A DNA stretch of 64,000 nt, taken from Luteibacter sp. Sphag1AF. GTDB taxonomy: Bacteria > Pseudomonadota > Gammaproteobacteria > Xanthomonadales > Rhodanobacteraceae. Positions 25,060-28,806 of this stretch are shown piece by piece. A program made the position numbers and the translations under genes. Position 1 is the first letter of the stretch. Each line of letters opens with the position of its first letter. The notes beneath the pieces are model-generated. The model was not told the origin of the DNA, did not search any database, and saw nothing but the letters and a program-made list of their open reading frames with translations. The DNA lies in the NCBI RefSeq assembly GCF_014192715.1, contig NZ_JACHYH010000001.1:434001-498000 (forward strand), read 5' to 3'.

Positions 25060-25293
25060 GTGAGGTCCGGTAGATAAGGAAGGCGCATGGCGCGCAAAGC
25101 CTAGCATGCTGCACCCGCACACGCGCACGCACGCAAAGGCACTCGCCCCGTGCGTGAAAATGCCCGGTTCAGCGCGTTGTGGGTAATGACGAAGTAAAAG
25201 ACAATGGCCGGGACCACGATCAGCAGTACGATCACGGGTCACCCGGATTCCCTACCGCGGCGTGCCCCCACGCCACCGTGCCGCGAGAACAGC

Positions 25294-26706
25294 ATGTCGT
25301 TTCGTTTTACTTCCCTGCTTGCCATTGCTTTCCCCTGTGCGCTCGCCGCTTCGCCAGCGCCGCCCGTTGCTCCTCCGCCGGCGAAGCCTCCGGTCGTTCA
25401 CGCAGATCCGCAAGCGCAGCACCTTCCTCCGGAACGCGTGCGCGCCACCATCGAGAACTACAAGCGATGGCTCGACGAGGTGGAGGCGCGCGATGGTGCG
25501 CCTGCCCTGGTCACAGCCGTGATCGTCGATGACAAAGTGGTTTATGAACGCGCCATCGGCTATGCGAACGCAAAAACCCGCGAACCGGCCACGCCCGAAA
25601 CGGTCTTCCGCCTCGCTTCGCTGTCCAAGGCATTCGCCACCGGTGTCACCGCGGTGCTGGTGCGTACCGGTGCGCTGAGCTGGGATACCAAGCTCATCGA
25701 CACCATTCCGTACTTCAAGCTCAAGGACATGCAGGCGGCCCAGCAAGCCACCGTGCGCGACATCCTGGGCCAGCGCCTTGGCCTGCCGCGCAACACGTAC
25801 GACGCGATGCTGGAAGCGGATGCCCCGTACGAAGAATTGGTGCGCAAGCTCGATGAGGTGGACCTGTCCTGCAACGTGGGCCAGTGCTACGGATATCAGA
25901 ACGTCGCCTTCAGCATGATTGGCGATGTGATCTACGCCACCACGGGCGATTATTTCTTCCGCCAGGTGGAGCGCCGCATCTTCCAGCCGCTGGGCATGAC
26001 CACGGCCAGCTACGGACGCGACGCACTGGAAGCCAGCAAGAGCTGGGCACGCCCGCATCGCGGCGGCCCGCACAACTGGATTCCCTACGAGCCCAACGAC
26101 AGCTACTACCGCGTCGCTCCTGCGGCGGGCGTCAACGCCAGCCTGCGCGACATGGAGCAGTGGCTGATGGCGCAGATGGGTGCACGCCCCGACGTGCTGC
26201 CAACGCCCTCACTGGACGTCCTGCACGCTCCTGAGGTGGCCACGCCGTCCGAAGAGCGGTCACTGCCCTGGCGTCGTGCGCGCGTTACCGACGCGCACTA
26301 CGCGCTCGGCTGGCGCGTGTTCAAGTACGACAACGAAACCCTGATCTATCACGCAGGCGCCGTGTCCGGCTATCGCACCATGATCGGCTTCTTCCCGAAG
26401 TACCACGCGGGCGTGGTCACGATGTGGAATGCCGCCAGCCCGATGCCGGCCGGCCTGATGCCCATGGTTTTCGACAGCATGCTCGATCTTCCGCATGTGG
26501 ACTGGGCTGGCGTGGAAAGCGCGGCGCCCGCAGTGCATGCCGCACCGGTTAAGGCGGCAAAGGGCAGCAAGGCTGCCGCGAAGCCTGCCGCCACCAAATC
26601 GAAGAAAGCCGCCCCGGCCAAGGCAGCCGCAAAGACGCCCGCCAAAGCTCCGGCAAAAGCAAAGACACCTGCCAAGAAGAAGAAAACCACACCAGCGACG
26701 CCGTGA
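25294..26706 (+). CDS. Serine hydrolase (class C beta-lactamase-like) with Lys/Ala-rich C-terminal tail
   Basis: 470 residues. Signal peptide about 1-20, Pro-rich linker, then a penicillin-binding-protein-like serine hydrolase domain. Its motifs are S109-x-x-K112, Y201-x-N203 and H353-A-G355, which match the SxxK, YxN and HxG (KTG-equivalent) boxes, so it looks catalytically complete. Such enzymes hydrolyse D-amino-acid peptides or esters in the periplasm. Residues 409-470 are an unusual low-complexity tail of Ala, Lys and Pro with about 16 Lys in the last 51 residues, like histone H1. The ATG at 25294 is used because the signal peptide starts there. Confidence 0.9.
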   Translation: MSFRFTSLLAIAFPCALAASPAPPVAPPPAKPPVVHADPQAQHLPPERVRATIENYKRWLDEVEARDGAPALVTAVIVDDKVVYERAIGYANAKTREPATPETVFRLASLSKAFATGVTAVLVRTGALSWDTKLIDTIPYFKLKDMQAAQQATVRDILGQRLGLPRNTYDAMLEADAPYEELVRKLDEVDLSCNVGQCYGYQNVAFSMIGDVIYATTGDYFFRQVERRIFQPLGMTTASYGRDALEASKSWARPHRGGPHNWIPYEPNDSYYRVAPAAGVNASLRDMEQWLMAQMGARPDVLPTPSLDVLHAPEVATPSEERSLPWRRARVTDAHYALGWRVFKYDNETLIYHAGAVSGYRTMIGFFPKYHAGVVTMWNAASPMPAGLMPMVFDSMLDLPHVDWAGVESAAPAVHAAPVKAAKGSKAAAKPAATKSKKAAPAKAAAKTPAKAPAKAKTPAKKKKTTPATP

Positions 26707-27834: not shown

Positions 27835-28101
27835 GATCGCTCGCTACAGAAGATTCTTCGATACGCGCGCCCCCTGATGGCTTGAAGCGGCAGACCCCCC
27901 GTCTTCCGCAGCGCGATGTCATGGAAAGGTAACTGCAATATGCCTACGGGTCCAGCGATGGGGACTAGGAGCTTTTCGGATCACCTGCCCCATAAACGAA
28001 GAACCCCGGCCGGGGCCGGGGTCAAGTCTTCGAGTGTCTCCCCGCGCTGGGCACCGCAGGGAGATAATTCGAAACGACAGCTTTTCTTATATGGGTGACG
28101 C
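27835..28101. other. Intergenic region between TonB-like and MetJ/H1 genes
   Basis: 267 nt. It contains the terminator-like hairpin at 28003-28022. No open frame with family-like sequence was found. Confidence 0.4.
27991..28022 (-). terminator. Probable terminator of the MetJ/H1 gene
   Basis: ACCCCGGCC and GGCCGGGGT form a 9-bp stem with a 2-nt loop about 80 nt after the stop. On the minus strand it is followed by TCTTCGTTTA, a weak T tract. Confidence 0.6.
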
Positions 28102-28743
28102 TTACTTCTTGACCTTGGCGGTCTTGGTAGCGCGAACAACCTTGGCGGCGGCGACCTTCTTGGTAGCAGCCTTGCGCGGAGCAGCCTTGCGGGCCGTGAC
28201 CTTGCGGGTGGCAGCCTTCTTGACGGCCTTCTTCACAGCCTTCTTGGCTGCAACCTTCTTCACGGGTGCCTTGCGGGCAACCTTCTTTACAGCAGCCTTC
28301 TTCGCGGCGGCCTTCTTGACCGGCGACTTGCGGGCTACGGTCTTCTTGGCAGTGGCTTTGCGGGCACCGGTACCGGCTGCCTTCTTGGCGACCGGCTTAC
28401 GGGTCGTTGCCTTCTTTGCGGCGACCTTCTTCGTGGCGGCCTTCTTCACCGCAGTCTTGCGGGTGGCCTTCTTGGCCGCGGCTTTCTTGACAGCAACTTT
28501 CTTAATTGTGGCCATAGTTCTTCTCAGCTCCTCATCAGTTGGCAGTGGTTGCCCAGTAAAAGCGTGGAGGAACGCTTCGACCAGCAGATCGCTGTTCGTA
28601 GCGTGCCTCAAATTGTTCACCTGGCGGCGAGTGCGTTCATCGGAAAGCAGACGCAACACGTGAAGCGGAATCGAGACAGTGATCTTGCGTACCGCTCCCG
28701 CTTTAGAACCGTGCTCGACATACGGCCTGATGAATTTTCCCAT
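28102..28743 (-). CDS. MetJ-like ribbon-helix-helix domain fused to a histone-H1-like Lys/Ala tail
   Basis: 213 residues. Residues 1-76 match the core of the methionine repressor MetJ very closely: PYVEHG, the DNA-contacting strand [27 protein letters not shown] and [14 protein letters not shown]. coli MetJ then has a last helix; here it is replaced at residue 77 by about 137 residues of almost pure Lys, Ala, Val, Thr and Arg (KKAAAKK-type repeats) like histone H1. An internal ATG (M77, base 28515) at the junction has GAGAAG 4 nt before it and could start a tail-only protein. GGTGAT lies 6 nt before the ATG at 28743; another ATG at 28749 is possible. DNA binding is inferred for both parts. 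Whether it still senses S-adenosylmethionine is unknown. Confidence 0.9.
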
Positions 28744-28762
28744 TCCCATATCACCCGTTCCC

Positions 28763-28776: not shown

Positions 28777-28793
28777 AAAGCTATTCCTGAACA
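28777..28793. repeat. 17-nt imperfect direct repeat, copy 1
   Basis: AAAGCTATTCCTGAACA overlaps the -10 box and spacer of the MetJ/H1 promoter. The second copy (28968-28984) differs at one base. Confidence 0.6.
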
Positions 28794-28806
28794 TACCCGC
28801 TGTCAA
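28778..28806 (-). promoter_or_regulatory. Promoter of the MetJ/H1 gene
   Basis: A perfect -35 TTGACA (28801-28806), an optimal 17-nt spacer and -10 TAGCTT (28778-28783) on the minus strand make this the best sigma-70 promoter seen in the window. Confidence 0.8.

Follow-up and report, generated by a model that had tools for sequence, protein, structure and literature searches.

Can a single reading frame supply both a specific DNA-binding repressor and a chromatin-like protein? The question is raised by a gene of Luteibacter sp. Sphag1AF that lies in the window, the 64,000-nucleotide (nt) stretch of DNA analysed here, and that joins the core of the met regulator MetJ to a long, lysine-rich, histone H1-like tail. 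The earlier note on this DNA had proposed that the locus encodes the fusion and also a free H1-like protein, a proposal now supported by codon constraint, Shine–Dalgarno pairing and homologous free genes. At a probability of roughly 0.84, the preferred reading is that one locus would yield two products, MetJ–H1 and free H1, and that the final stretch of metJ would double as leader and ribosome site for the nested gene. Sequence comparison establishes the fusion, its met boxes, the codon constraint and the free homologue with its leader; use of the internal start, DNA binding by the tail, S-adenosylmethionine dependence and the order of events are inferred.

The full-length ORF opens at the ATG at 28749, and a further ATG two codons inside it, at 28743, gives a protein of 213 aa (Table 1). 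Its amino-terminal part scores 128.8 bits against the Pfam MetJ family (PF01340; cut-off 25; residues 4–90 of the 215-aa ORF) and 132.6 bits against the NCBIfam MetJ equivalog (NF003622; cut-off 110), and a PDB search aligns E. coli MetJ at residues 4–81 with E=1.5e-32. This similarity far exceeds chance, and the resemblance of residues 1–76 to MetJ, on which the proposal had been staked, is significant on all three measures. The remainder matches Pfam HC2 (PF07382) at 43.6 bits against a cut-off of 40, over residues 80–213, and falls below cut-off for the NCBIfam H1-like models (31.2 vs 80; 30 vs 135). Since the E. coli MetJ alignment stops at residue 81, where the tail begins, the last MetJ helix appears to have been replaced by the tail; by that alignment and by Pfam, the C-terminal helix is absent from the fused protein. 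The earlier note had thus correctly described a MetJ core without its last helix, fused to an H1-like tail of about 137 residues. The fused ORF is the only MetJ match in the whole genome. A scan for sigma-70 consensus promoters listed none, including the promoter-like pair seen by eye upstream of metJ.

Table 1. Features of the metJ–H1 locus, in positions of the window.
Feature	Position	Strand	Basis or remark
Full-length ORF, MetJ core plus H1-like tail	28102..28749	minus	215 aa from ATG 28749
MetJ ribbon-helix-helix core, without last MetJ helix	28516..28740	minus	Pfam, NCBIfam, PDB alignment
Nested H1-like ORF, 137 aa, from conserved junction ATG (putative)	28102..28515	minus	Met in 95/95 distinct fused genes; free homologous gene in MetJ-less families
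Conserved putative Shine–Dalgarno GAGGAG of nested start	28528..28533	minus	GAG GAG in 95/95; 12 nt from ATG
45-nt stretch, 15 codons, under synonymous constraint	28519..28563	minus	36 vs 256 changes; homologous to free-gene leader
ACTGGGC box, near upstream end of conserved leader	28551..28557	minus	Comparison of fused and free genes
Terminator-like hairpin 3′ of gene	28002..28023	minus	By scan
Promoter-like TTGACA, 17 nt, TAGCTT, upstream of metJ	28778..28806	minus	By eye

The fusion is not peculiar to the window's genome. MetJ matches occur in 145 of 398 genomes of the order, 125 of them in the window's family and 20 in three others (f8, f9 and f12). The window's family is taken as Rhodanobacteraceae because of the genera named among the fused loci, namely Luteibacter, Dyella, Rhodanobacter, Frateuria, Oleiagrimonas, Tahibacter, Dokdonella and Mizugakiibacter, to which metagenome-assembled genomes (MAGs) are added. 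In every genome of this family but one, the MetJ frame spans at least 137 codons from stop to stop, a length that accommodates a tail; the single exception is a gene cut by a contig end. In one genome of the family (G392), an internal stop codon interrupts the MetJ frame. The tail was read directly in 95 distinct fused genes. The MetJ genes of f8, f9 and f12 are short (80–106 codons, one 143), and at the loci read they carry no Lys-rich tail. A search for the fusion among Xanthomonadales genomes, which the earlier note had suggested as a check, thus finds it throughout Rhodanobacteraceae, where on these comparisons it is general. A class-wide survey found MetJ in 2 of 185 genomes, one being the window's own, too few to serve as a wider control.

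The 95 fused genes come from 131 loci that are not a random sample: the 30 best MetJ matches, 20 picked stretches, the 80 best named loci and the window's own. A motif search returned 115 rows from them, and the 16 loci without a row were tail-less or cut, showed a 10-base slip, or (L042 and L082, from one genome) had an in-frame stop in the core. Leaving out 10 rows that lacked a tail, 9 that were duplicates and 1 truncated ahead of the Met gave the 95 genes used; the filter required a junction Met, yet cost no fused row for want of one. Across 89 complete tails, length ranges from 35 to 309 aa, with a median K+R fraction of 0.40 and a median D+E fraction of 0. With its PF07382 match and its cationic Lys/Ala composition, the tail is of the HC2/H1-like nucleoprotein type. 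Such nucleoproteins, among them Chlamydia Hc2, Bordetella BpH1 and Pseudomonas AlgP, share with it Lys/Ala-rich repeats and an almost complete lack of acidic residues, a likeness that is compositional and no proof of descent; unlike them, the tail is joined to a specific repressor and lies nested within its gene. Of 98 loci tested for gcvH, 88 have the gene in the examined flank. In two other families of the order, tail-less MetJ genes (L002–L011, L035, L036) end soon after PTDEEL or PTDEDL and lack the full C-terminal region that E. coli MetJ has; given this early end, loss of the C-terminal helix may have preceded gain of the tail. No separate H1-like gene stands beside tail-less MetJ at 21 short loci in 20 genomes of other families.

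The Met at the junction is kept in all 95 distinct fused genes, preceded by Thr, Asp, Ile, Ala or no residue at all. The earlier note had placed a likely second start at ATG 28515, served by GAGAAG 4 nt upstream. Both are present, and the start has held up; GAGAAG has to be rejected as the ribosome site, since the second AGA codon that creates it occurs in only 2 of the 95 genes, and the conserved element is GAGGAG. The latter lies 12 nt from the ATG in 85 genes and 9 nt in 10, a spacing that exceeds both the usual optimum and that of the free genes described below (mostly 7 by the same measure). Pairing with the anti-Shine–Dalgarno sequence at the junction has a median energy of −9.1 kcal/mol; the median share of other in-frame positions that pair as strongly is 1.4%. 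Local structure there amounts to −4.4 kcal/mol versus −10.4 elsewhere in the core.

The codons leading up to this start are strikingly constant. In a parsimony count, for which the tree was built with the first 48 codons and the expectation drawn from codons −68 to −21, the last 15 codons of the core have undergone 36 synonymous changes against about 256 expected among the 95 fused genes, and other 15-codon segments show 0.72–1.28 of expectation. The commonest series is GCT TTT ACT GGG CAA CCA CTG CCA ACT GAT GAG GAG CTG AGA CGA, and the window's own reads GCT TTT ACT GGG ... AGA AGA. Arginine before the junction is encoded by AGA at 90 of 90 sites, a codon that makes up 4% of core Arg codons. 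In eight tail-less MetJ genes of f9, out of the 13 listed, the 13 codons up to EEL have a diversity of 0.60 vs 0.12 in Rhodanobacteraceae, the rest of the core being equally diverse (0.50) in both groups. Because the constraint spans 45 nt, beyond what a Shine–Dalgarno needs, the leader presumably has a further or different function; the CTGGGC box within it is fixed in position in the fused genes. Stable RNA structure was considered as the cause and rejected, as the minimum free energy z-score in the window is +0.74 and the structure is weaker than elsewhere in the core. An Rfam scan gave three sub-threshold matches, none of them at the junction. A conserved in-frame start and a putative ribosome site under synonymous constraint are what a nested gene would be expected to display, and together the constraint, the Shine–Dalgarno pairing with low structure and the homologous free genes strongly support the view that the junction ATG behaves as a real start. 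One Luteibacter MAG (L082, 5237 nt; apparently the genome G392 above) has an in-frame stop in the MetJ core and a tail open for 133 codons from the junction ATG. The core may be broken here and the nested gene alive, or the stop may be an assembly error; such an arrangement is what a separately used start would permit.

The free genes come from families that lack MetJ. The first of these, with MetJ in 0 of 60 genomes, is taken as Xanthomonadaceae because the gcvH of one of its genomes (G013) is that of Stenotrophomonas sp. SY1 (100% over 131 aa); in the second, f3, MetJ is found in 0 of 3. All four gcvH loci fetched from the two families have beside gcvH a free Lys/Ala-rich ORF behind a junction-like leader. 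This H1-like gene starts at an ATG homologous to the junction ATG, behind a leader, CTGGGC...CTGAYGAGGAG...ATG, that shares homology with the last part of metJ. A strict form of the leader pattern matches 17 of 60 Xanthomonadaceae genomes and 3 of 3 in f3, and a relaxed form matches 46 of the 60, the pattern read backwards matching none in either case; of the 14 genomes without a relaxed match, one is matched by the strict pattern. Invariance within the pattern is built in by the search. What follows it is an H1-like Lys/Ala-rich ORF at 20 of 20 strict loci and at all 30 relaxed loci fetched (of 46), with gcvH in the examined flank at 18 of 20 and 22 of 30, respectively. The best Xanthomonadaceae leader is 90% identical to a Rhodanobacteraceae junction over 70 nt by BLASTN, and in the best matches homology starts about where TTTACTGGGC starts in Rhodanobacteraceae. 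In 41 distinct free-gene leaders, the CTGGGC box lies 19–51 nt upstream of GAGGA (e.g., L212, L256). Together with the 45-nt reach of the constraint, the box at its varying distance suggests that recruiting ribosomes is only part of what the leader does. Matches to the free H1-like protein in a protein search were mostly compositional and gave no useful names. Four X. campestris genes are annotated Histone H1 in Table 1 of PMC8578834. Free Xanthomonadaceae "Histone H1" proteins, those of X. campestris being known from that annotation, have no MetJ part, and the free genes found in the family begin at the ATG homologous to the junction ATG of the fused genes, behind the homologous leader. Also seen by eye in Xanthomonadaceae are GC-rich hairpins (e.g., GCGGGTCCGACTCCCGC) that often stand just before CTGGGC (L224, L233, L248, and others); these may terminate the gene upstream or belong to a long leader.

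Which came first, the free gene or the fusion? MetJ is patchy in the order, at 145 of 398 genomes, and the free gene is common in Xanthomonadaceae, a distribution that would suit an older free gene with its leader onto which MetJ was joined by recombination in Rhodanobacteraceae. Such a history is unlikely: tail-less MetJ proteins of another family already show the 11 residues encoded by the leader stretch, and a leader native to the free gene would have needed to encode MetJ residues by accident. Because tail-less MetJ has these residues, the leader is most simply explained as old metJ coding sequence.

The free genes also weigh on whether a second product is made at all. Were the fusion protein the sole product, the codon constraint would have to reflect some other role of the DNA or mRNA, such as a folding pause, a binding site or an internal promoter, and its run of 45 nt upstream, past a Shine–Dalgarno, with a CTGGGC box near the upstream end, could be read in this way. 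Yet the same element stands right before the free-gene ATG in MetJ-less families, which have no preceding domain whose folding could call for a pause. The junction Met persists even where its preceding residue is variable or absent, and the stretch forms little structure and can pair with the anti-Shine–Dalgarno sequence. All of this makes a fusion-only locus quite improbable. Two products from one frame, with the last codons of metJ serving as leader, remains the preferred reading.

The MetJ half of the fusion has operators to match. Met boxes were sought as AGACGTCT occurring twice, adjacent, with at most 2 mismatches in 16, the control being the pattern read backwards. Such pairs occur in 58 of 59 Rhodanobacteraceae genomes, at 220 sites vs 32 for the control, and in 0 of 59 Xanthomonadaceae genomes, where the backwards control did match. 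Of the 30 best loci fetched, one per Rhodanobacteraceae genome, 15 are located 173–265 nt before metX, 3 before metJ (158–172 nt) and 1 before metB, and 11 are near none of the genes tested. When four box-adjacent proteins were checked as MetX, three scored above the NCBIfam cut-off and one below. Pairs also occur near genes other than metX, metJ, metB and metE, for example at L149 and L173 (a perfect pair), and at L171 one precedes an aminotransferase gene; the loci away from those four genes are possible further members of the regulon. In the window's own genome, three adjacent octamers with 2, 0 and 3 mismatches (G000:C1:430489-430512) sit between metX and a cysteine synthase gene. At 3 mismatches this genome has 14 met-box places vs 8 for the backwards control, so a weak box standing alone, like that upstream of metE, carries no weight. 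At the metJ promoter, a box pair with at most 4 mismatches is present in 66 of 94 fused genes (94 of the 95 being covered) against 0.8 expected from shuffles, mostly about 160–200 nt from the metJ start. The window's own metJ is without such an autoregulatory box, its best candidate having 6 mismatches, which is chance level, and three other Luteibacter-like loci likewise lack one (7, 7 and 8 mismatches).

The core keeps its DNA-contact residues and most of its pocket residues. In E. coli MetJ numbering, the β-strand DNA contacts are K23 and T25 and the pocket for S-adenosylmethionine (SAM) comprises R42, E59, H63, F65 and L70. By this numbering, K23 is kept in 94 of 95 fused genes and T25 in 95 of 95, as are E59, H63, F65 and L70. 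At position 42 the window's gene has Arg, as do 65 of the 95; the other 30 have His, Tyr or Glu. Separately, position 39 is Leu in 30 of 95. Changes at positions 42 and 39 could alter the response to the corepressor. Judged by the met-box counts, the core is probably a working repressor, and the specific DNA-binder that the earlier note had envisaged is MetJ in sequence, with met boxes in its own family and none in Xanthomonadaceae under the search above. It is accordingly very improbable that the tail protein is the sole product that matters and the MetJ part a decaying leader nearing loss as in Xanthomonadaceae, for however well the MetJ-free tails of related families, the core stop in one Luteibacter MAG and the replacement of Arg42 in 30 of 95 genes might fit that idea, the core is 80–96% identical to the window's in the best 80 named loci, the other contact residues are nearly invariant, and met boxes are distributed 58/59 to 0/59 between the two families.

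How, then, might the two-product locus operate? Translation from 28749 or 28743 would yield MetJ bearing, in place of its last helix, a long and positively charged H1-like tail that is probably disordered. The MetJ core would bind tandem met boxes at metX and, in most family genes examined, also at metJ, with SAM presumably as corepressor of the fusion, and the tail should add unspecific DNA affinity to the repressor. Ribosomes, we infer, also initiate at ATG 28515, guided by GAGGAG (28533–28528) and the leader ACTGGGC...ACTGATGAGGAG, so as to make the tail alone, a 137-aa protein that would coat DNA in the manner of H1. The last 15 codons would then have a double role, coding for MetJ residues while also forming the nested gene's leader. 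Where met boxes are present at the metJ promoter, they would tie the supply of H1-like protein to methionine and SAM status. Xanthomonadaceae and f3 would have lost the MetJ part, with only the nested gene and its leader left behind. On balance, we incline to the fuller account that these steps compose, in which a repressor that responds to a metabolite and a protein that coats the nucleoid share one frame, the last part of the repressor gene is also a conserved 45-nt regulatory leader with a role beyond that of a ribosome site, SAM feedback at the metJ promoter sets the level of a chromatin-type protein, and in related families the repressor was lost, its last codons persisting as the non-coding fossil leader of a released, free H1-like gene.

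The fusion shares with E. coli MetJ its ribbon-helix-helix core, the DNA-contact and most corepressor-pocket residues, and tandem met boxes at met genes, including its own promoter in most family members examined. Unlike E. coli MetJ, it bears a long cationic tail in place of the last helix, and the end of its coding region would be a nested-gene leader. Nested in-frame genes with internal initiation are known from, for example, infB, clpA and mcrB, which likewise give two products in one frame, a long one and a short one that corresponds to its C-terminal part. Here, by contrast, the short product would belong among nucleoid-type proteins, its longer partner would be a repressor that responds to a metabolite, and related families keep only the short gene with a relic leader. 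Nested in-frame genes, MetJ and H1-like proteins are each known; the combination and the fossil leader are new. In a literature search that covered few subscription papers, no paper was found on MetJ with a histone H1-like or lysine-rich nucleoid tail, on MetJ with internal translation, or on histone H1 in Stenotrophomonas in connection with the nucleoid.

In a comparative study of methionine regulation in Proteobacteria, MetJ is listed for none of the 4 Xanthomonadales genomes, and SamR is predicted as a regulator of methionine and SAM genes in that order (PMC4239095). SamR is there SahR-like, SahR being of the ArsR family, and is unrelated to MetJ; its presence could be the reason MetJ became dispensable. 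The main text of PMC4239095 does not mention Rhodanobacter, the best-known genus of Rhodanobacteraceae. The met boxes described here would extend MetJ regulons to this family. If the two-product reading is true, methionine and SAM supply would be linked to a chromatin-like protein via one gene, a C-terminal domain with its own internal start would have become an independent gene after loss of its host domain, and old metJ codons would have been retained as the untranslated leader of that gene. Database records titled "met regulon transcriptional regulator MetJ" are then suggested to hide a second product.

Lysine- and alanine-rich sequence is also found elsewhere in the window's genome. Further such stretches lie at G000:C6:39907-40365 (L250) and at four other places; among them are a second free-looking H1-like ORF (MATTRKSAAKK...) with no CTGGGC in the 80 nt upstream and, by eye, tails on a topoisomerase-like and a Ku-like protein. 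Within the window, a 500-aa serine-hydrolase-like ORF (25204–26706, plus strand; beta-lactamase-type, by eye) ends in a Lys/Ala/Pro-rich C-terminal tail.
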